A stretch of DNA of 64,000 nt. Origin: Sphagnum magellanicum (lineage: Eukaryota > Streptophyta > Sphagnopsida > Sphagnales > Sphagnaceae). The first letter of the stretch is position 1. Each line of letters opens with the position of its first letter. The stretch is taken from NCBI GenBank assembly GCA_021904315.1, contig CM038915.1:18228001-18292000 (forward strand), read 5' to 3'. The notes beneath the pieces are model-generated. The model was not told the DNA's origin and did not search any database. It saw only the letters and a list, made by a program, of their open reading frames with translations. The translations under genes and the position numbers were made by a program. Positions 17,901 through 39,067 of the stretch are shown piece after piece.

Positions 17901-19121
17901 GGAGGCAAGTACTTTAGAATTGTGCATTATTTGTTTTTTTGTTTTGGGTTGAACCTTTTGATTAGTTCATCCCATGTGCACAAAATTTTTAATGTGAAAT
18001 CGGGTGGCCACACCCCCTTTGTTTATATAGTGTTCAAAGTAGGAATGAAGAACAAACAATATGGGATAAGTTTTGAAGTTGCAACTTCCTTACAAATTAA
18101 GTTGTAATTCCAAAACTTTCTTCATGCCTAACTTTCTTAGTTTTTAGATTTTTAAACAATTCAAGTACTAGATAATTAGATAATCATTTAATTAATAATG
18201 ATTCAATTTACATATATTTAAATTATAAACAATACACTACAAATATTCATTATTCATTATCAATTACTTAAATAAACAATGGTTTTTTAATATTTAACAA
18301 ACTAGCTATTTAGTTACTCACAAGTTATAATACATAACTCATAAATAATTAAATAAATAAAATATTTATAAAATATTTATTACTTTTTAGAATCTGATCG
18401 AATTATATGTAATATAATTGATGTAAAACTAATTTAATGACTGTAATTTTAAAAATAAATATTTTAAATATTTCTTTTAACATTATAAGTAATGAATTAA
18501 CAATTGTTATTAAAAAAGTAAATTCTTACACGATTTCTAAAAAATTACTATTCAACTAATTACATTACTTACTGGATAATTACATTTATTGTTGTAAATA
18601 TTATTATAGGTCAAGTTTTCTTTTTGCTCTTGGTAATTCTTAACTATAAATACAATAATTTGTTCAACATAACATTAATTTTCATAATTACTGTAAAATT
18701 ACTAAAAAATATTTGTCATAGATGATTAATCAAAATTTTTTTAAAGATAATATTATTATATAATAATTGGTGAAATTAAAATCAGTAAAATAATTATTTT
18801 AACTACACCATAATTTTTCCAATTTTTTAATTCAGGTTTGAAATTATAAATTAAAAAGTGTGAATATTATGTCCAATTACAAAATAAATCTGCACATACT
18901 AATTAATTCTTATATGAAGTAATTAAAATGATTTGAGAGTAATGTCACGTTAATTTTATTTATTTATTTCTTCTAATATAAAAATATATATTATATAATA
19001 TACAAATCTATGTTATTAGAATAATTACTTAGTGTCACTTAGATTTAATAAAGATAATCATTTATAGTTATTTATAAAAGTGATTTATTATGGATAACAA
19101 TAGTAGAAAAAACCCTTGAAA

Positions 19122-20030
19122 CTCAATCAATAATTTTTTGGATTAAAATAGAAATTTAAGATTCCAAAATAGTATTTCAGAATTCAAATATCAATTTTAA
19201 ATCAAATAAGTTTTTTGAAGTCAAATAACAAATTTCAGAATCGAAATGTCAAATTTCAGATTCAAATAATAGTATTCAAAATTAAAAATGTCCATTTTAA
19301 GGCTCAATTAATAATTTTCTGAATTGAAATATTAATTTTGAAAATCCAAAATAATAATTTGGAATTCAAATTTCAACTTTCAAGTCAAGTAATTTTTTAA
19401 AATTTAGATTAAAAACTTCAGAATTCAAATATCAAATTTCAAGTTCAAATTAAAATATTTAAAATCAAGTTGCCAATTTTTAGACTCAATAAAGTTTCTT
19501 AAATTGAAATAATAATTTTTAGATTTGAAAATAATAATTTAGAATTCAAATATCAATTTTTAGATCAATTTTTTTTTTGAATTTAAATAAAAATTTTCAG
19601 AATTGAAATGTCAATTTTCATATTCAAATAACAATATTCAAAATTGAAATTTCCATTTTTATACTCAATTACTAACTTTCAAACTTGAAATATTAATTTT
19701 GAGAATCCAAAATAATAATTGGGAATTTAAATTTTAGGTTCGAATCAAATGATTATTTAGAATCTAAATGAAAAAAATTCAGAACTGAAATATAAATTTT
19801 CATATTCATATAAAAATATTCAAAATTAAAATGTCCATTTGTATGATCAATTAATAATTTTCTGAATTGAAATACTTATTTTTTTATTCCAAAATATTAA
19901 TTTATAATTCAAAATCAAATTTTAAATCAAATAATTCTTTTTGAATTTAAATTCAAAATATCATGTTCAAATCAAAATTTTCAAATTCAAATAATGTTTT
20001 AAACAACTGAAATAACAATTTTCAGATTTG
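19122..20030. repeat. Tandem repeat of about 181 bp, five diverged units
   Basis: The marker CTCAATTAATAATTTTCTGA and its variants occur at 19122, 19303, 19485, 19664 and 19846, with spacings of 181, 182, 179 and 182 bp. Between markers the same order of words recurs: GAATTCAAATATCAATTTT, then CAGAATTGAAATGTCAA, then AATATTCAAAATT. Units are diverged. The array lies within CACTA-like copy 1. Confidence 0.85.
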
Positions 20031-21198: not shown

Positions 21199-21666
21199 TT
21201 AAAATTCTTTTACATCATTTAACCACTTAGGCCATGTATAAAACAAACTTGCATTTGTGGTTTGATTAGGCACACTTGTGGGTTCTGTACTATCCGATAA
21301 TCTTAACAATGCATTTACAACTACATGAATTCTACTTGGTTTATACACTATTGTGAAATCATAATAAAAAACCAATAACAACCATTTAGCTATTCTCCTT
21401 GAAACATGTGGTTTGTTGGCCAAAAAAACCAATGCCATATGATCTACATAAAAAACAAACTTATTGCCCAACAAACAACGTTTGAACTTGTGCAAAGAAA
21501 AAACCATTACTAAAGCCTCTCTTTTTGTTGTACTATAATTTTGTTCTACTCTATTTAGAAACTGAAAAGCATACACTATTGGTTTATCACTCTTTTGTGT
21601 TATGTTTAAAGACAACATATCCCCCATAGCTAACAAAGACACATATGTATGAACATGAAATTCCAC
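21199..21666 (-). pseudogene. RNase H domain (Ty3/gypsy, minus strand)
   Basis: Typical Ty3 RNase H order: PIVYAFQFLNRVEQNYSTT, then REALVMVFSLHKFKRCLLG, then FVFYVDHMALVFLANKP and a tether region with DFTIVYKPSRIHVVVNALLR. In functional copies the last segment reads N-x-x-A-D-x-L-S-R; here the acidic residue is lost. It follows RT on the same strand. Confidence 0.88.
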
Positions 21667-21849
21667 CTACCAATTTGGTGATATTAGTATCAGTGTTTCA
21701 ATATACTTTTGTTTAATCAATTCCTAGGCCTTATGACATTCCTCTATCCAAAGAAGAGTCTTTTTTTTGTTAATTTAATGATAGGTGCCATAATTGCAAC
21801 AAAATTTTTTATAAAACATCTGTAAAATTGTGCCATCCCATTGAATATT

Positions 21850-22790
21850 TGAATCTACTAGGGATTCTTAGGTGGTGGCATGTTTACGATTGCTTGTATT
21901 TTCGTTGGATATGGTAGTTTCCCTTCCTTGGAAACAATAAAACCCAAGATCATCCCTGAAAATACCATAAATGCACATTTGTCTGGATTCAAACTAATGT
22001 CATATTCTCTATACTTTTAAAAACATAGTCCAAGCTTTTGCACATGGCTCTCCATGTCATAATACACTGTAAAGTCATCCAAAAATATCTTCTTAAAATT
22101 ATCCAAATACTTTTTAAACGTTTTGGTCATGGCTCTACGATATGTTGGAGGTCCATTTTTATCTCCAAATGGCATCACCTTCCATATAAAAGCCCCCCAA
22201 TCTATAACAAATGCAATATTTTATTTGTCATCTACAGCTATAACTATTTGATGATATCATGAATATCCATCTAAGAAGGAATATGTCTCATACCCTGCTA
22301 TTGTGTTCAACACTTCATCTGTAAAAGGTAATGGGTATGGATCTTTTTTTGTGGCTGCATTTAGTTTTCTAAAATCTATACAGATTTTCAACTTGCCATT
22401 TTTGTTGGATACTATTACTATGGGTAAGAACCATGTAACTTCTTCTACAAATTCAATGAACCTAATTGCTAATAACTTATCTATATTTTGTTTAACCATT
22501 GTAACATAGTTTGGATTAATCTGTACCTAGCTTAATGTGTTAGCAATATAGTAGTGTCCAACTCAATTGTGTGTTGTGCTAACTTTGGTGGAATCCCTTT
22601 TAGATCTTTGTGTGTCCATGCAAAAACATCTTTGATTTCCTTCAACAATTGTTCCAATTCTAGCACCTTGCCTATTTTTAATTGTGCATTAATCTTCACC
22701 ATTTGTGGTTCTATATCAGTTCCAAGATTGAACTTCATCAATTGTTGATATTTAATTAACATCCATTTTGTTATCTGCAATCCCTATGCT
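21850..22790 (-). pseudogene. Reverse transcriptase (Ty3/gypsy, minus strand)
   Basis: The pre-RT segment VFAWTHKDLKGIPPKLAQH leads into KLKICIDFRKLNAATKKD, then PYPLPFTDEVLNTIAG and the motif FLDDFTVYYD near 22090-22060. F-L/M-D-D in place of the more usual Y-x-D-D is typical of the Tat/Athila branch. Several frameshifts and stops interrupt it. Confidence 0.88.
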
Positions 22791-29274: not shown

Positions 29275-29659
29275 ATGTTGGTTGTAATTTACCCAACCAA
29301 GTAACCAACCTACAATGTTCCAACTCCAACCCATAACAACAGATTCGATTCAAAATCCATTAGTTAAATAAGAAACTTTAAACCTTAAAACGTCAAATCT
29401 AAAACAACTAACCACATTACCAAGATTTTTCATTCTACTTTTCCCTTGTGGCAACATGTTATTTCAAGAAAAATAAAATAAAAAATCTAATGGTTGTAAA
29501 AAATCATTGGAGATCATCACTACCCAATGTCATGCCCGTACATGGCCTCATACATGATGGCTAATTACGGGCATACCCATGTGTGCTTTTAGGGTTAATG
29601 TACGATCTTAAGCAACTGTACGTTATTAGGTACTTAGGGTTTCAATTTGTTGGCGACGG

Positions 29660-29668
29660 TATAAAAGG
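29660..29668 (+). promoter_or_regulatory. Candidate TATA box
   Basis: TATAAAAGG in the context GCGACGGTATAAAAGGTC, about 1.7 kb upstream of the gag start. It is of the form found in LTR promoters. No transcript evidence is available. Confidence 0.4.
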
Positions 29669-30109
29669 TCTAACCTTATCTTTCTCTTTTTAATTTTTCT
29701 AGAATTCCTTTGTCAAGAGAGCTTCCTCCATAATAAGTTAGGATTTCTAGATGCTCACGGCAGCCATTGCACGACCACCATCTACATACATTTCATTTTC
29801 TTCTTTCTTTGCAACTTAATTCTAGAAAAAATTACATTTTTTGTGCTTCATGTTGAAAGCCATAGATTTCTTTTGCTTGTAAGTTCTTGAGTTATTTTTG
29901 TTGTTGCTATTGTTACTATTGTTAGTGAAACTGCTGCTGGAGGGTGTTGGTGTTGTTGCTGTCGAAGGGAGTTGGCATTGTTACAAGAAGGAGCTTGTGT
30001 TATGCTAACCAATAGAGTGGGAAAACAGGTTTCGAATCTCTCTCCTTTCTTTCTTTCTCACTTTTTTTTTTTCTCTTGAAGTTGTTGAGTAAAAAAAAAA
30101 ACAAAAATT

Positions 30110-30716
30110 TCGGCGGTTGCCACCTGCCATCGCTACACAACAGTGGAGCGCTACCGTTGCCATGAACTCTAGCGCCGCTCGCCATTATTGCATAGTACAT
30201 TGTCGTCCACCGTTGTCGCGAGCTGTAGCGTCACAATGCTATAACGTCACAGTGTTGCGAGCTGCAACACCACAGTGCCATTGTAGTAGCAGCATCGCAA
30301 CGCCATCATTGTAGCAACCACGCCGCAACAATAGCAGTGCTATCGTTACAGTAGCCGTGCCACAACGCCATTTCCGCAACAACAGCGCCACAATGCCATT
30401 ACCGCAGCAACAGCGTCGCAACGTCATTACTGCAGCAACAACGCCGTAGCGCCATTGTTGCAACCCCATCGTCACAGCGCCATTGCCATAGTGCCATCAC
30501 CGTAGCACCATCGCCACAACAACAAGGCCGTAGCGCCATCGTTGTAGCACCAGTGTCGCCGCGCCATTACTTTAGCACCAGCATTGTAGCAATAGTGTTG
30601 TGAGCTACAACGCCATTGCTGAACACCAATGCCATCGCTGTAGCAACAACGCCATTGCTGTAAGAACAATGCTAGAACGTTGTGAGCTGTGGCGCCATCG
30701 TTGCGACCTTGGTCCA
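30110..30716. repeat. Degenerate GC-richer minisatellite
   Basis: About 600 bp built from irregular repeats of words such as GCGCCATCG, GTAGCA, ACAACGCCA and AACAGCGCC, with unit lengths near 20-40 bp. It is CG-rich against an AT-rich background. All frames give low-complexity peptides and none is a credible gene. Confidence 0.75.
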
Positions 30717-30980
30717 TTCGATGTTCGTCCGAGTTTCGTCAGACTCTCGTCCAATGATTTGTTCAGGTTTTGTCCGTCAAACTTCCGTCCATCCAGATAC
30801 TTCCGTCCGACGTTTATCATATTTTCATCCTGCACTTTGCCGTCCTACGCCTTGCGCCCTGCCATCCTGCGTACTATTTTGTCATCCTGCCTTTTCATCC
30901 AACATCTATTTGACTTTTGTTCGACCTTCGTCCGACCTTCGTTGGACGTTCGTTTGACCTTTGTGCGATGTCTGTGTGTC
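30717..30980. repeat. TTCGTCC-rich degenerate repeat block
   Basis: Words like CTTCGTCCGAC, TTCGTCCGAG and CTTCCGTCCG recur at irregular spacing, most regularly at 30919-30955. It abuts the minisatellite and precedes the gag leader. Confidence 0.65.
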
Positions 30981-31360
30981 ACGGGTCATTCCTAACAACG
31001 CACTATATTCTTCAAACTATACATTGTGTTAGAATTTTGTAGTTAGTGCTATGTATTATCACAAAATTTTGGGGCATGGGATAACACCATGTCCTTAGAT
31101 GATGAGAGCACTATCGCTCAGCGCGAGCCCATGTATTAGCTATGAAATAACACACAATCCTTTGAGCCGATTTTTTTAAGCTAACAATCTTCATGACGAT
31201 ACCATCAAGTGTCTACAGTAGCATCGTCATCTAGTACAACTCCTACCAAGAATTCAGGCTCAGGTTACATTACATCAACGATACATTAGAGCCCATTTGG
31301 AGGGGCTCATTAGTGGGGTATGCTTGTTGTCGCACCTACTTTCACACCATCACTGTGACC

Positions 31361-32575
31361 ATGGAGGTCAACAGTTCTTCTGGGAGAATTTAGAAGTTCA
31401 ATGAAAGGCCAGGTACTATTTCTTTGAGGGAGTTTAAGGCAACTTTTTCAACTGTGGTTTTTGAATTGGAGCTCAAGTATGGGGCTAATTACACCGAGGC
31501 GTTTGCATTCAAATAATTAGCTCGTTATGTGCACTATGAGGCATTAGATGTCTATGAACAACATTCTGCAAGGATTTTGGGTGTCACCTAGATTCCCAAT
31601 CCAACTTACGCCATAGCCATCGCCACTGCCTTTCAAGCTGCATTACAAGCTACAATTGCACATCACGGGACTGTGCCGAATAATCCAGACCCGGTACCTA
31701 CCTCAGTAAACGTTTTTCCTCAACAACTCATTGCTATTACCACAAACATTCCTCCCACCATCGATGCGCCAGCTTTTGCTGATCCGGTGGGGGAATTCTT
31801 GTGAATTCTTGAGGTGGAATTTCTAGTTAAAAAATTCTGCAGATTGATGAAACCCTCAAGATGCTCTATAGGAGGCTTCTCAAACTCAAAGAAGATACCC
31901 AGAGCATCACAGACCTAGAAGCGGCCCACTGGTATCTTCGTTCGTTGGAAGGTACTCCAACACTCCATGCGCAGGTTTTACAATGGGTTTTTGCAAAATT
32001 TGGAGACTCGTACACTTTACTGGATGCGTACAACATTTCCGAAAAGCTAAAACTAGCTCATGCACACTATGAGGCCAGTACTATGAGGCCTCCATCACGT
32101 TCAAGGCCTCAACTTACACCAATTACACCAACTTGATCATCACATTCTTCTTCAAAGACTAAAGCGGTGCACTCGACTACACCCATCTTACCTTCTTACA
32201 ACTACTGTGGCAATCTCGTGACAAAGCTAGTGAGTGCAACATTCCTTCCGAGGATCTCTTTTGTGATTATTGTGGGAAAGAGGGACATCGGGAATCTGTT
32301 TGTTTTACCAAGTTCTCGAAACGGAAGCAATTTTGATTATAATGGCAAAATCTGCAAGCATCTTCCATTGTCCCTCAACCAAAAGCCAAGGCACCTCAGC
32401 CTTCCACTCGGGCTTTGCCCACCAAGGGTAATTCCAACAAGAATGTTAAGAACAAGGAGCACAATGCTAGTAAGAGGGAGGTGCTTCAAGCCCATGCAAT
32501 TCAAGTTCAGACTTTACAAAATGAACTCGAATCATTAAGGGCCCAACTTGCTAATCTAAAAGGCAAGTCCTTCTA
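31361..32575 (+). pseudogene. gag of the plus-strand Ty3/gypsy element, with CCHC knuckle
   Basis: ATG at 31361. Capsid-like text includes FNERPGTISLREFKATF, YGANYTEAFAFK and LARYVHYEALDVYEQHS, with TAA or TAG at Gln-like positions. After a shift it continues at about 31840 with ITDLEAAHWYLRSLEG. The knuckle CDYCGKEGHRESVC is at 32262-32303. A Gln/Leu-rich helix (VQTLQNELESLRAQLANLKG) ends near 32565. The knuckle frame continues into protease. Confidence 0.75.
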
Positions 32576-32762
32576 ACCAGTTAATCATGCCCAACCTGTA
32601 CAAGGTTTAGGATCACGAGAAGGACCTCCTAGGTTGTTCTATGGCCTTCCACATGATGCCATGGTTGGGGGGTATGTTCTTTCCACTCCACACAATTCTA
32701 GTCTCACACCATAATTTGCTACTTCTTTTTGCCCTTCCTATGTCGCGGCACAACAAGCTAGT

Positions 32763-33713
32763 GTGGCACCCAGAGTTTTTGCCATTAGGCAGGTAATTCA
32801 GACTAATGGATTCGCATTTGGTTCAAGTCCTATTACCAGGGCTAGAGCAGCTCGAGTAGTCATGCCACAATCTTTTTGTCCTTTTAACATGGAAGAAGAA
32901 CGCACCTTGTTGGCGAGGGGGCAGGAGACTACTACACCACAAGTTGTTAGGGCATCAAATTCTCGTGTCCCAGGAATACATGTACATCAGGAAAACACAC
33001 AATTTTCCATTGATCAACTTATGGAATGCCAACTTCAAATGCATGAAATGGCGCAAAAGCTTATGAGTACACCATTGTTTAGTTTTCAAGATTTGAAGCT
33101 AAGCACCAGGGACATAATTGCAGTCCTAGAAGATACCTTGAACACTACATCAGATCCTTTACCAATCCCTAATCCACATACTACAGAAGTCCCATCCAAC
33201 ACCTTAGAGAGACATTCGATTGGCTCACGTGTTGTAGATAGTGGTCGTAATTTGGTCACTAGTCCTAGCACGGTTAAACTAGTGGGCTTTCCTACCTCTG
33301 ATTTTACATTCACATATCAAAAGGGAGTTAAGAACACCTCACTTGTAGATTTATTATTTAGCAAAGGTGTTGTGGATAGCCATTCTCTCCACAAAGTCTT
33401 TCACTCATTTCCGAAGGTGGTGCCTAATGAGAGAACTTCCATCGCCACCGGAGTTGCCATTGTCGACAATACTAGGTCAGCAATCCAAGTGGGAGGACAT
33501 ACACCCAGAATGGTACTTCTTGACACAGGTGCCCAACCAGTGATTCTTGGATTTCAATTCGCCAAGAAGATGGGCATGCTTGACTCCAAATTACGGAAGT
33601 CTATGTGGCAGATTCGCATTGCTAATGGGAGCGTAGAGGAGATACTTAGGGAAAGCTCGGATTTGATTACACTTAACTTCAATGAAGGTATAAATCGGGA
33701 GCTTTGCTTATAG
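32763..33713 (+). pseudogene. Aspartic protease region of the plus-strand Ty3/gypsy element
   Basis: 316 open codons. The N-terminal part is a linker. The retropepsin core starts near 33480 with PRMVLLDTGAQPVILG (D-T-G at 33522-33530) followed by KKMGMLDSKLRKSMWQIRIA. Open at its end only as far as a TAG at 33711, after which the same frame continues toward the methyltransferase. Confidence 0.85.
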
Positions 33714-33824
33714 GTCAAATGTTTAGTCACCAACGCCACCAATTATGATGTGTTCATTGGGCAAGAGGCCCTGTTTCCACCAAGTTTCACAATTGACAAC
33801 TAGTTTGAACATGCGTACTACCGA

Positions 33825-35216
33825 GTGGATTGGGAGACTGATGGTCGCCACCTAGGATACATACCCCTTGATTTACATGGTAACCATAGTCCTATGGCTC
33901 ACCATTGTATGCTCAAACAAGCACACACCATTTCCTACATCCAACAAGTTAACCACGAATGGATAGAGGGAGATGAGGAAGAGATAGCTTACGGTCAAGC
34001 TACTGAAAGCTTGAGGGTGGTTCCTACTGACATTCAACATGGACTAGAGGTTTTACAGAGGTTCAAAGTAGCCCACAAGCCCTTGGTCAAAGCTTTGTTT
34101 AGTTTTGAAAACATGGAGAGCCATGGTGAATCGATTAAACCATTACTTCGTCAATTAATCACCTGGACACCACCTAAGGAAGGGATTACATTACTAGAGC
34201 TCTTTGGTGGTATTGGTATAGGTGTCGAAGCCCTACTACAGTCAGGGATGGTGGTTCGAAGGTATTTTTACCTAGACATTGATCCTATTGCAAAGCAAGT
34301 GGCGACATCAAGAATGAGGGAATTCACAACAAGATTTCCACAATAGTTTGTAACCACCACATGGAAGGTTAGTTTCACATTTTTGCCCTCTGACATACAA
34401 CCAATTCAGAAGAAGCATATGGAATTACTTGGCCCCGTCGACCTCATCATTTCAAGTTGGGAGTGTCAAGGATTTTCAGCGCCTAGATTTGGAAAAGGCT
34501 TGAGTGACACAAGATTTGGTCTTTTCACAGACATGATACAATTAATCACCTAGGCTCAATCCATTTCTCCTACACTTGGTTATGTAATTGAGAACACCCC
34601 TTCTCAACTTGACCAGAGGGAGAAAATCCAGGAGCACTACACACTGGTCAAGCATTACCTTGGAGAGCTGCTCCTACTTGATGCGGCACAATGCGGTTCC
34701 TATGCGCACCGCCTGCGCAATTGGTGGACCAACTTGGCACCACTCTTAGTTCTGCAACTAGCTCTGAAATACACTATCAAAGACCCCAACTTACAAGTTT
34801 CTCACATATTGGATGATCAAAGTTTTTGCCAACCAGTTACAAGGCAAGAAAAACCTCCTTGGTTTCATGCGAACATAATAGGAAAACCAAGAGGTGCTTG
34901 GCCCACCTTTGTTTCCTTCCTAGGAGCACATGCCTTTCAAGGAGATGGACCAGGCTTGGTGTATTGTCATGTTTCAATCACTTGGGATGAACCAAGCCCA
35001 GAAGAAAGAGAAAAGGCTATGGGGTTCCAAGCTAGCACTACTAATCACACTAAGGTGACTAGATTGGAGTGTAATGTTCTACTAGGGAGAGGCATGGACC
35101 TGAACTCCCTTACATGGTTGTTGGTAATTTGTGTACTCTTTCAAATGTACACAACACTAACAATGATTCAATCAACTTGCAGTTCTAGCGATGTAACCAC
35201 ATGGCACCTCGACTAA
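33825..35216 (+). pseudogene. Cytosine-C5 DNA methyltransferase domain in the Ty3 polyprotein
   Basis: Transfers a methyl group from S-adenosylmethionine to C5 of cytosine in this family. Motifs are in non-permuted order: I LLELFGGIGIG (34191-34223, SAM site), II YLDID, IV DLIISSWECQGFS with the catalytic Cys codon at 34464-34466, VI GYVIENT (about 34581), VIII CGSYAHRLRNWWTNL (34691-34733), and a motif X-like end EREKAMGF, LLGRGMDLNSLTWLL. Motif IV has E where P usually precedes the Cys. Plant DRM enzymes are permuted, so the order fits the Dnmt3/Dnmt1/bacterial layout; the motif IV and X style recalls Dnmt3. Only two TAG codons (34344, 34551) interrupt it. Frame is shared with protease and RT. 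Confidence 0.88.
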
Positions 35217-35495
35217 GTACACTTGTCTATTTTCAACACTCTACATTTCACTCTTAGTGTTGGGGGGGAGGAGGTACCATGTAATTTGACTCAAGTTGTG
35301 TCTAATACACCTGGAGGTACATCAACTTCTAGAGAAACAATTACAACCTTTTACGAATCTACGCAATTGGATAGTGGAAAACCCAATACACCAAGTTCCT
35401 CAAACACACTTTCCAACTCCATTCCATGTGTTTCCAACTACCCTTTTGTTATGGGAAACTAGCTCACCAAGAACGAGAGAGACCAAGTCACAGAC

Positions 35496-36296
35496 TTGCT
35501 AATTAAGTATGAGAATGTGTTTGCATTCTCAATGAAAGACTTAGGTAGGTGTAAGACCATGCAATTTTCTATAGACCTTACAAATGAAACACCCATCTAT
35601 CGAAGGAAGCATAGGTTGAGCAAGCATGAGTGGGAACCGGTAGATGAAAGATGCAAAGAACTCCATGAGGCCGATCTCATTCAGCCATGAAGTTCTGATT
35701 TCGTAGCCGTTACAGTAATGCTAGCAAAGAAAGATTCAGCTGGATTATGGACTGAGAAAAGGATGTGCGGGGATTATAGGCCTTTGAACCTAGTTACACC
35801 TTAGGATAGGTACCCCATGCCCATCCCTGAAGAATTATTTGATAACATTAGAAATTCAAACATCTTCATAATTGTGGATCTGAGGCAAGGTTTCAACCAG
35901 ATTGTGCTCGTTGCGAAGGATCGCAAGAAAACGACATTCCATGGAAGTAACAAGTTATGGGAATGGCTTGTGATGCCTTTTGGATCGAAAAATGCACCTG
36001 TCTTATTTCAACGAGTCATGGACCAGGTTCTCAAAGGGGCAGATTTCTTGAAATGCTACATAGATGACGTCCTAGTGCATAGCAAGGAACTCCTGCAGCA
36101 TTTGGCTCATCTTGAGGAGTTATTCAAGTGGCTCCACGAAGTCAATATGAGGATCCATCCTAAAAAGTGTGAGTTTGTTGTCACCGCAGTAATCTACTTT
36201 GGACATAGAATTTTGCCAAATGGTATTATGGCTCATTGGGCCAAAGTAGTAGCCATTTTGGAGATGCCTAATCCTAATGATGTTCACACGTTGTAG
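35496..36296 (+). pseudogene. Reverse transcriptase of the plus-strand Ty3/gypsy element
   Basis: The pre-RT text FSIDLTNETPIYRRKHRLS is followed by MCGDYRPLNLVTP, IIVDLRQGFNQIVL, LVMPFGSKNAPVLFQRVMD and the catalytic box CYIDDVLVHS. Stops: TGA at 35688 and TAG near 35803. The Y-I-D-D form differs from the F-L-D-D of the minus-strand element, so the two are different lineages. Confidence 0.92.
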
Positions 36297-36880
36297 AGCT
36301 TCATCGGACTATGTAATTACTACAGAATTTATGTCCAAGACTTTAGTACTATTGCTCATCCTCTCTATGCATTGTTAAAGAAGGATGTTGCTTGGACATG
36401 GAATGATGAGGCTCAGGAAGCTTTCAACACACTCAAGGAAAAGCTTTCAGAGTTCCCCATTTTGAAAAGACCTAATTTCAACAAGGTCTTCATTCTACAC
36501 ACTAACTAAAGTGCTTTTGGTATTGGAGCTATTCTTGGCCAACTTGATGAGGAAGGTAAGTAATATGTTATCGCCTATGCATCTCGAAGCAACAATAAGG
36601 CTGAAAGCAACTACTTTTCATACGAGGGGGAGTGCCTTGCTGTTGTATGGGTCGTCATACGTTTCAGGCCCTATCTTTATGGCACCAATTTCACTTTGTA
36701 TATCGACCACCAGCATATCAAGTGGTTGATGACCAACGATAAGTTTACTGGTAAGTTAGCTCGTTAGGTGCTTATACTTCAAGAGTATGAATTCAAGGTT
36801 ATTCACTGACTTGGTATTACACATCAGAATGCAGATACCATGTCGCGAAGACCCCTTGCTACCTCTAAAGATTTTTCAAA
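36297..36880 (+). pseudogene. RNase H of the plus-strand Ty3/gypsy element
   Basis: The RT connection FIGLCNYYRIYVQDFSTIAHP leads to RNase H: FILHTN-stop-SAFGIGAIL, where the first catalytic Asp is now Asn, then YFSYEGECLAVVW and LYIDHQHIKWLM, ending HQNADTMSRRPL. Stops at 36294, about 36508, 36561, 36766 and 36809 show decay. Confidence 0.88.
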
Positions 36881-37110
36881 AGCCATGCAAGATTTTAACC
36901 ACATTCCAGCAATACATGTATCTTAGGCATCTAGTTATCTTGCAATACTGCAATGTAACCTGGTTGAGCATCCCATTCTGGATATATGGGAGGACTTGGA
37001 CACCTTGAGGTTTCTTCAACATGGGGAATACCCTCCCCAAGTTACATCAAGTCAACGGGATCACATACAATAGCGGTCAAAACAATACTCATGGAAGGAT
37101 AATCACCTCG

Positions 37111-37996
37111 TCCGATGCTTACCACAAGGCGACAGAATGGTTCCACCACCACATGAAGAACCTGGTCTTATTCAAAAGGTACACTCGGAGCTTGGACACT
37201 TTGGAATTAAGCGTATTTATAGCCTTCTTACTCCTCATTACCATTGGAGAGGTATGTCTGCTCAAGTCCGAAACATCATTGCTAGGTGTGAACAATGTGA
37301 TAGAGTGAGACTTCTTTCTCCTCTCGATAATTCACGCTTTCTCCACTCCCTATTCAGGGCATGTTCTATCGTTAATCATGTGATTTAACTGGAAAGTTAC
37401 CACAAACCTCCAGGGGTAATGTTTACATCATGATTATGATTGAGCATTTTTCAAAGTGGGTTGAGCTTGTTGCGCTATCAGACAAGTCATCACATAGCAC
37501 TAACTAGGCTTTCTTACAACAGGTTCTAAGTAGGTTTGGGGCTTGTGTTGAGTGCCTTACTAATCAAGGATCAGAATTCAGGGGAGAATTCCAAGACCTA
37601 TTTGACCATGTTCTCATTGACCATCGTCGGACTTCAAGAGATCATCCCCAAGTTGATGGCCTTGCAGAAAGGATGGTTCAAACATGCAAGAAAGGACTTC
37701 AGAAAATTTGCCTCACTAAGAACAAAGAGGATTCGGACCTAGCCTTCCCTTACAACACCATGGGTTACAAGATGTCCAAACACGCCTCTTTATCTCATTT
37801 CTCTCCTTACTTTTTACTTTTTGGGAAACATCCCATTCCACCCTCTTCCATTACTGCTCAAATGGACCAAGTTGTGGACTTGGACTCCCCAACCACTTGG
37901 GCTAAGGTCATTACAGAAAGGGTCGTTCTATTCAAGAGGGTTATGCCCATGGCCATGGAGAACTTGTCCATTGCACAACATCGAGACACCTTATGA
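37111..37996 (+). pseudogene. Integrase of the plus-strand Ty3/gypsy element
   Basis: The zinc site HSELGHFGIKRIY...CEQCDR lies at about 37182-37305. The catalytic core reads EHFSKWVELV, then CLTNQGSEFRGEF (the second catalytic Asp has become Asn), then HPQVDGLAERMVQT (catalytic Glu kept), then SHFSPYFLLFGKHPIP. A frameshift occurs between 37388 and 37673. Confidence 0.9.
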
Positions 37997-38029
37997 TATG
38001 CACACACACAAGGTGGCAGTTACAAACCT

Positions 38030-38254
38030 AAGGTGAGACAATTTGATGTTAGCGATTTTGTGTATCTCCAACGGCAACCCAATGATACTTTAGACGCCTC
38101 TTCCGGTCGCACTATCTTGAGGATTAAGGCGATCATGCCTTTAGGTGTGTTGGAATTACAAGGAGTTGACGGACACACAATTCGGGATCATTCCAAAAAT
38201 TGTGCGCCTTGCCACCTGCCGAACTTGGATCCTACCATCATCACGTCGACTTGA
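38030..38254 (+). pseudogene. Integrase C-terminal domain of the plus-strand element
   Basis: It begins RQFDVSDFVYLQRQPND and continues RTILRIKAIMPLGVLELQG and HTIRDHSKNCAPCHLPNLD. This is the SH3-like GPY-type region that follows the integrase core. It stops at TGA 38252-38254 where TGG is likely ancestral. The frame continues into the PHD finger. Confidence 0.82.
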
Positions 38255-38275
38255 ATTCCTCCACTTGATTATCCA

Positions 38276-38410
38276 TGTCAGGTTTGTCAAAGGATAGATG
38301 ATGTTGATCAGATGTTGCTTTGCAATAACTGTAATGGTGGATACCATCTATTCTGCCTCAAGCCGGAGCTCATTCAAGTTCCCACCGGCAATTGATATTG
38401 TTCATCATGT
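38276..38410 (+). pseudogene. PHD finger at the integrase C-terminus
   Basis: 45 codons carry a complete C4HC3 ligand set: CQVC, then CNNC after an 11-residue loop ending MLLC, then YHLFC (His plus Cys), then CSSC. The LLCNNCNGGYH core and LKPELIQVPTGN text are standard for PHD fingers, whose known role is reading the histone H3 tail. The Trp two residues before the last Cys pair is replaced by TGA, one change from TGG. It sits where chromoviruses carry a chromodomain. Confidence 0.88.
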
Positions 38411-38463
38411 TCTCCTACAACATTTTGATTCCTACTTAGACCATGCCACGCTTTTCCCGGCTC

Positions 38464-38480
38464 AGGTCTAGGGGGGGGAT
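38464..38480 (+). other. Candidate polypurine tract
   Basis: AGGTCTAGGGGGGGGAT lies about 50 bp past the end of the coding frame. It would prime plus-strand synthesis and mark the inner edge of the 3' LTR, perhaps starting TGAGAATTTCATCTC at 38484. Confidence 0.6.
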
Positions 38481-39067
38481 ACATGAGAATTTCATCTCAG
38501 CCTCCTCTTGTGCATTGTATATATATATGTGTGCATGCATCTCTTTTTGGTTAATTAGTTTATACCTTTGACTAGCTTTAATCTTTTTGTTTAGTAGAAT
38601 TTACTACAGATTTACACCCTTACGACACTGTATGTCACGACATTACATGTCACGACACCAATGCCACATCAAAAGAAAAAAGACAACCTCACAAAATATA
38701 CAACAAATTCAAGCCAAGTTGTGGTATGTTTTGGTCTATTAGTGGGTTTTGTAGACAATGTTCAAAGCCCTTGTTTCTTTCACCCTAATGATATCCTTTA
38801 AACCCATAATATTAGTTCCTTCCCCATTTTTGTTTTACACTTGCAATTCATTTACAATTGATAATGTCATCAAATGACACACTTGGTGTAAAACTTGGTG
38901 GAGTAGCAACAATTTAGACATTGTCTTATCAAGGAAGGGGACCTGACCCCTTGGCTTTGGAAGAACTAGCTACTTACAACTGAAATTATTTACAAGTTGT
39001 CAACACAACAATTTCACTCCAAAACAAAAAAACAAGGTGTTAAATAATCACAATATATGTAAATGTG
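38481..39067. other. Possible 3' LTR remnant or spacer
   Basis: It holds a short TA run (38518-38528) and two TGTCACGACATTACA-like words near 38632-38662. I found no copy of it upstream of the element, so I cannot call it an LTR. Confidence 0.4.

Follow-up and report, generated by a model that had tools for sequence, protein, structure and literature searches.

A DNMT3-like cytosine methyltransferase domain between protease and reverse transcriptase in a multi-copy gypsy-type retrotransposon of Sphagnum magellanicum

Does a cytosine methyltransferase (MTase) that lies inside a Ty3/gypsy polyprotein belong to the retrotransposon, and if so, what might the element do with it? The question is raised by a stretch of 64,000 nucleotides (the window; contig CM038915.1, positions 18,228,001 to 18,292,000), in which the initial annotation had placed such an enzyme between protease (PR) and reverse transcriptase (RT), in a genome that it rightly took to be land-plant-like: the source is Sphagnum magellanicum. 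Positions 29528–38657 of the window are one 9.13-kb Ty3/gypsy-type element copy bounded by a 4-bp duplication, CCAA, at 29524–29527 and identically at 38658–38661. All its parts lie on the forward strand. The copy opens with repeat A (A1, 29528–29820, starting TGTCATG; 79–81% identical, in two blastn pieces, to repeat A of an open-frame copy, L009), which has a TATA box at 29660 and a putative transcript start and self-primer at 29694; a putative 13-nt primer-binding site at 29818–29830 is complementary to 29694–29706. The coding parts, located by tblastn with pieces of L009, are gag with zinc knuckles (31358–32333, frameshifted), aspartic protease (33402–33791, 85% identity; PF13975 at 4.6e-05 on 32715–33710, slightly below the cut-off), the MTase domain (34155–35141, 89% identity to L009, two internal stops), RT (35577–36269, 89%; PF00078 at 1.5e-28 on 35805–36293), RNase H (RH; 36387–36806, 89%), integrase (IN) with an H2C2 zinc finger and a DDE core (37122–37888, 87% in two frames separated by one frameshift) and, as the last domain of Pol, a PHD finger (38216–38422, 84%). 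A polypurine tract, AGGGGGGGG (38470–38478), stands immediately 5' of repeat B (B1, 38479–38657, ending CACGACA, 88% identical to that of L009 by blastn).

This copy is dead, because in-frame stops and frameshifts interrupt it. PR, MTase and RT all align to the open-frame copy in frame 3, as had been claimed for the methyltransferase motifs, but in this copy stop codons interrupt it, TAG at 33711, 33801, 34344 and 34551 and TAA at 35214; the whole polyprotein has 30 in-frame stops, and frameshifts occur in gag and in the IN/PHD region. Derived changes, scored against three agreeing copies, comprise transitions at 83 of 374 CHG, 38 of 245 CG and 151 of 2341 CHH cytosines, next to 34 of 1787 T and 33 of 1877 A. 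The decay is of the C-to-T kind at CHG and CG, which would fit a copy that was once methylated and then lost by deamination, as expected of an element silenced by its host. Elsewhere in the window, a second, distant and decayed gypsy-type RT/RNase H lies on the reverse strand (21301–22388), about 27–30% identical to that of the MTase-bearing element; when the remainder of the window was searched with the polyprotein of L009, no MTase match appeared beside it. A highly AT-rich segment (GC 0.179) covers 18001–20000.

The methyltransferase had been assigned to 33825–35216. A domain is present there, but it spans 34155–35141, and the first 330 bases are the linker between PR and MTase. With TAG read as X, the window stretch matches PF00145 at 24.0 bits (cut-off 22), compared with 35.4 bits for L009; the two open pieces of the stretch, searched alone with Pfam, gave no PF00145 match. 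The best solved relative of the window stretch is DNMT3A (7.6e-04), and a profile comparison ranks DNMT3A (5.9e-24) and DNMT3B (3.6e-20) before 4onj, a DRM (2.1e-10), and M.HaeIII (2.4e-07), so that the nearest class among solved MTases is DNMT3. The motif order is unrearranged; a DRM type was rejected, as the element MTase has motif I first and the order of the Sphagnum DRM is rearranged. A phage family, phrog_116, is a further match (2.2e-16).

By the customary motif labels, P-C marks motif IV and ENV motif VI. In the window, motif IV reads E-C-Q rather than P-C-Q. The same ECQ occurs in 18 of 18 loci fetched from the window's subfamily and in a liverwort relative (Calypogeia, P0022), and therefore is not a product of decay. 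All 21 elements compared (the 20 loci fetched and the window) retain the motif IV cysteine and the glutamate and asparagine of motif VI, and 19 of the 21 retain the arginine of motif VIII; these Cys, Glu and Asn residues are also invariant in an alignment of 32 hand-picked homologues. Before the cysteine, 19 of the 21 elements have E (the window and 18 loci), and L022 and L023 have P. We know of no description of E-C-Q as a catalytic variant among C5 methyltransferases.

Searching the genome (439 Mb, 31 contigs) in six frames with PF00145 yielded at least 124 matches, host MTase genes included (123 of 387 candidates scored), some of them in open frames of 500–2379 aa. With the window's own stretch of PR tail, linker and MTase as query, at least 87 stretches matched at at least 86 places, the window counted (86 of 1264 candidates scored), and the match begins at query residue 1 or 2, in the PR tail, at 83 of the 86 places listed. 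These copies rule out a chance motif match as the source of the MTase signal. Twenty 10-kb loci were fetched on the basis of an MTase match, with preference in most cases for those whose open frames are long. L009 has a single open frame of 2,379 aa running gag-PR-MTase-RT-RH-IN-PHD, in which Pfam finds PR, PF00145, RT, RNase H, H2C2, rve and a PHD finger (PF00628, 42.8 bits) in this order; gag, zinc knuckle, PR, MTase, RT, RH, IN and PHD follow one another in 21 of 21 elements (the 20 MTase-chosen loci and the window). To avoid choosing copies by their MTase, we also searched with RT only (150 of 3648 candidates scored). An MTase match lies within 2.6 kb 5' of RT in at least 70 of the best 100 and at least 43 of the best 50 RT matches, a pairing that left out five host-gene rows of the PF00145 list and one fragment row of the window-stretch list. 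For 7 of the best 50 there is no MTase match among the matches listed, and the enzyme may be genuinely missing from some RT relatives. The claim that the MTase is part of the element holds against both conditions that the initial annotation had set for its refutation: PF00145 does match, and other copies have the MTase at that position of the polyprotein. We are in hardly any doubt that the MTase-bearing element is a multi-copy Ty3/gypsy-type retrotransposon of Sphagnum with an MTase between PR and RT.

The Pol order PR-RT-RH-IN with a DDE integrase is that of gypsy (Metaviridae-type) elements, with the MTase placed between PR and RT. In the Pfam scan of L009, chromodomain had no match and the PHD finger occupies that place; PF00589, the tyrosine recombinase, was likewise absent, and an rve integrase was found instead. 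The best solved relatives of the PHD finger are of mixed kinds, KMT2D first (3.7e-16). Two gene models annotated as hypothetical proteins in S. magellanicum, P0029 and P0041, consist of pieces of these elements (MTase pieces and PHD), and models of this type could lead to false counts of PHD or DNMT genes.

Synonymous and nonsynonymous differences were counted for every pair among nine copies in which the MTase frame is open. For the MTase, pN/pS was 0.23, with a 95% interval over codons of 0.15–0.34 that is too narrow because the copy pairs have a common history, as holds for all such intervals here. The other parts gave 0.29 (RT), 0.34 (RH), 0.18 (IN), 0.09 (PHD), 0.29 (gag) and 0.50 (PR), and the linker between MTase and RT 0.62. 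Ten further, more decayed copies gave 0.31 for the MTase, 0.40 for RT, 0.26 for IN and 0.17 for PHD. The MTase is under purifying selection, as the replication enzymes RT and IN are, and selection keeps the MTase and the PHD finger along with these enzymes.

A direct-repeat search of the window and the 10-kb loci revealed no classical LTRs, and only short repeats in L023 and L028. The element, with termini TG..CA, opens with repeat A (311 bp in most copies, TGTCATG..) and closes with repeat B (178 bp, ending ..CACGACA in most copies). Two forms occur: A-internal-B in seven elements (six loci and the window) and A-internal-B-nn-A-B in seven elements with both ends covered. Four further loci (L010, L011, L026, L028), whose full 5' end lies outside the fetched sequence, have B-A-B at the 3' end, and split A-B-A-B repeats are also found in L023, which belongs to a second subfamily. 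The two nucleotides between B and A are GC in six of the seven two-LTR copies and AC in one; A2 and B2 adjoin without a lost base in six of seven, and the repeat copies diverge by 1.0–3.7%, so that these seven insertions look recent. Of 14 elements (13 loci and the window), 12 have an exact 4-bp duplication, or 13 of 15 with L023 included; the exceptions are L017 and L021. With ends A..B or A..B-GC-A-B and no direct LTR pair, the element is gypsy-type by its domains, not a classical LTR element. Membership in DIRS/PAT was rejected: the split repeats alone agree with it, whereas the integrase is of the rve type, a tyrosine recombinase gave no match in the Pfam scan of L009 and target-site duplications are present. 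In one locus, L020, the 5' end carries inverted B-A pieces and B1 is followed by A in inverted orientation; it is either a rearranged copy or a nested insertion.

In 11 of 13 copies, a putative self-primer of 13–16 nt lies 31–34 nt past the TATA start; its complement covers the last bases of A and the beginning of the internal part. In the window the complement is 13 nt long. Two copies are without a 13-nt self-primer, L014 having a complement of 10 nt and L015 one of only 9 nt, elsewhere. Among 1000 shuffles of L009, one matched its self-primer value. The layout is that of self-primed elements such as Tf1. We envisage that the transcript would begin in repeat A at or near the putative start, fold back and prime its own reverse transcription beside the end of A. 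If reverse transcription took its usual course, the cDNA would carry long terminal repeats B-GC-A and could form circles with one or two LTRs; the integrase might then open a circle at the palindrome GACA-GC-TGTC and insert it with a 4-bp duplication, one-LTR circles giving A-internal-B and two-LTR circles A-internal-B-GC-A-B. The combination of split repeats, a DDE integrase and 4-bp duplications suggests integration from circles, a route that we consider somewhat probable from the structure of the ends.

Two accidents of sequence history could be advanced against this account. Split repeats might stem from nested insertion or from recombination after integration rather than from circles, and the inverted A and B pieces at both ends of L020 indicate that rearrangement does happen. 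Yet the form A-internal-B-nn-A-B recurs, with GC at six of seven junctions and little divergence between the repeats, and 4-bp duplications flank the outer ends of separate insertions, also in the second subfamily; we regard such an origin as very improbable. Likewise, the broken frame of the window copy and the failure of its two open pieces to match PF00145 could indicate that a host MTase gene or fragment fell by chance into one gypsy element, through nested insertion or as an assembly artefact. Against this stand the copies at at least 86 genome places, the constant domain order, the 2379-aa open frame, the purifying selection and the fact that other genera have relatives; the multi-copy result refutes a one-off host-gene insertion, and the probability of such an accident is practically nil.

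As to function, we propose that the MTase is made within Pol and would be freed by PR in the particle, where it would methylate the element's own new cDNA, which could then enter chromatin resembling host DNA; the PHD finger might steer the integrase to a histone state. Methylation of the element's own cDNA is a possible function to which we give a little less than even weight, and targeting of integration by the PHD finger seems about evenly balanced. The MTase would most likely benefit the element by protecting the cDNA or making it acceptable, rather than by silencing rivals. As the initial annotation proposed, such an element might hide itself or alter host silencing. Catalysis is not assured, since the motif IV proline is lost in the window's subfamily, and the domain may instead be kept there as a binding or structural part that does not methylate. 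Glutamate for proline before the catalytic cysteine, throughout that subfamily and in Calypogeia and some environmental relatives, speaks for this, as does the fact that purifying selection on the domain does not need catalysis; DNMT3L is a catalytically dead DNMT3. However, the conserved residues of motifs IV, VI and VIII described above, and the sister subfamily of the same genome, which has PCQ and retains the motifs, make a non-methylating role unlikely. Alternatively, the enzyme could act on host chromatin, on rival elements or on RNA, e.g. by methylating target sites. DNMT3 enzymes act on chromatin, and Pol also has a PHD finger, which belongs to a chromatin-reader class, but a place inside Pol would bring the MTase into the particle together with RT and IN, and we judge a target other than the element's own cDNA improbable. 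RNA as a substrate is discussed for LINE-type element DNMTs in PMC5890265. Our preferred explanation as a whole, in which the anatomy of the element weighs most and the proposed steps of replication and function are included, appears very likely.

Relatives extend beyond the window's subfamily. The second subfamily in S. magellanicum (L022 and L023) has an MTase with 41–42% identity, with PCQ in motif IV and the motifs kept. Three of its loci (L001, L003, L004) have a common stop soon after the MTase (..KVAA*QLVLKSS), and a Marchantia protein (P0063) stops soon after its MTase; in the second subfamily, RT may be reached by readthrough or splicing, or be read from a second frame. Two protein searches gave at least 56 and at least 66 proteins, the second scoring only the 7997 candidates that share most words. 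Relatives among them are named as from Calypogeia fissa, Marchantia polymorpha, Sphagnum balticum, S. troendelagicum, S. fallax and Closterium, with many environmental proteins; no relative named as Klebsormidium nitens is among the matches listed (120 of 3847 in one search). ECQ is also present in Calypogeia P0022, Closterium P0124 and in P0032, P0101, P0102 and P0112, while another Closterium protein (P0116) has SCQ and Marchantia P0067 is without motif IV altogether. A PHD finger follows the integrase in P0112 and P0114 and stands at the end of Marchantia P0113. The domain order of P0101 is that of the window, whereas in the environmental proteins P0115 and P0117 the MTase follows RNase H and precedes the integrase by Pfam positions, so that the MTase occupies two places in Pol; in P0032 and P0037, also environmental, it lies after RNase H and/or before the integrase. 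The order in these four proteins suggests that the MTase moved within Pol or was captured twice.

The initial annotation had proposed a phylogeny of the domain. Our tree (54 rows, 296 columns) holds 26 element MTases, 15 plant DNMT3, two DRMs, DNMT3B and ten environmental DNMT3-like rows, labelled 'prok', a label that is unproven; it is without DNMT1, MET1, CMT, DNMT2 and K. nitens rows. The element MTases fall together in a single clade with 100/100 support and a stem of 1.65, outside the plant DNMT3 clade (99/98), but AU tests favour no one sister group (p 0.286 for plant DNMT3 and p 0.45 for the environmental DNMT3-like rows); grouping with DRM/DNMT3B received 79/63. The enzyme may thus derive from a host DNMT3, a DRM, or a bacterial or phage MTase. 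In the group of 20 rows labelled PR-MTase-RT, that order was checked in nine (L009, L021 and L022 by tblastn; P0022, P0076, P0081, P0101, P0102 and P0104 by Pfam matches that flank the MTase on one side) and the other 11 are so labelled by default; among the latter, P0060, P0063, P0073, P0090 and P0116, scanned with Pfam, showed neither RT nor PR. Plant host DNMT3 (Sphagnum P0125/P0126, MpDNMT3a/b) and the element MTase are alike in their DNMT3-type motif order; the host enzymes differ in forming their own clade and, in Sphagnum (L054), in a gene split into exons, while the element MTases stand apart on a long stem. DRM genes are also present in the genome.

Chromoviruses and Tf1-sushi elements have the gypsy order RT-RH-IN, a reader domain that ends the integrase and self-primed reverse transcription. 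The Sphagnum element shares the domain order and, putatively, the terminal reader domain and the self-priming, and it differs in its PHD finger in place of the chromodomain, its MTase and its split repeats. Ginger1 DNA transposons have a gypsy-like integrase, TGTNR ends and 4-bp duplications, and Ginger1-9_HM has a PHD finger beside it (PMC2836005). Ginger1 is, however, a DNA transposon with terminal inverted repeats, and gag, PR, RT and RH rule it out as the identity of the Sphagnum element.

The closest precedent is KnitGypsy-Dnmt3 in the alga Klebsormidium nitens (de Mendoza et al. 2018, PMC5890265), described with gypsy domains, DIRS-like repeats and purifying selection and called an independent acquisition. 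The statement in the initial annotation that element MTases are known from only a few protist and algal lineages agrees with that paper, and PMC12344493 repeats the class of element-borne DNMTs. By the description in PMC5890265, the two elements have in common a DNMT3-type MTase in a gypsy-type Pol, DIRS-like repeats and purifying selection on the MTase. Compared by description only, the Sphagnum element differs in its land-plant host, its at least 86 places, the C-terminal PHD finger, 4-bp duplications, putative self-priming, one-LTR forms and the ECQ subfamily; the term 'PHD' is absent from the main text of PMC5890265. SymbioDIRS-Dnmt3 and SymbioLINE-Dnmt of Symbiodinium are, like the Sphagnum element, retrotransposons with a C5 methyltransferase, but their backbones are DIRS, with a tyrosine recombinase, and LINE. 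In the authors' tests, SymbioDIRS-Dnmt3 methylated CG de novo and SymbioLINE-Dnmt did not methylate DNA, and the authors argue for methylation of cDNA by element DNMTs (PMC5890265).

Among the titles and openings of abstracts listed, we found in print no land-plant copies of MTase-bearing elements, no C-terminal PHD finger, ECQ motif IV or self-priming ends in such elements, and no split A-internal-B-A-B repeats combined with a DDE integrase and 4-bp duplications. The text portions covered of PMC6453930, PMC10538959 and PMC10952607, on plant and eukaryotic DNA methylation, mention no element-borne bryophyte MTase. The Sphagnum element is a selected land-plant member of a kind reported so far, as found, from one charophyte and dinoflagellates, with added features. 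We consider it doubtful, although conceivable, that one ancient capture gave rise to a streptophyte-wide, self-primed gypsy-type lineage with a C5-MTase writer and a PHD reader that integrates from circles by a DDE integrase, the ECQ branch being a catalytic variant and the 'independent acquisition' of K. nitens part of the same event.

For the annotation of bryophyte genomes, counts of 'DNMT3' genes should be checked for element-borne copies. The ends of the element also point to the opening of circles, which would be an uncommon route for a DDE integrase. DNA methylation is the means by which plants silence transposons, and this one appears to bring along part of the machinery that ordinarily silences it. 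A transposon lineage with its own selected MTase and a putative chromatin reader opens the question of what a mobile element gains from methylation, a question that is testable in a land plant, since Marchantia, a genetic model, has relatives of the element.
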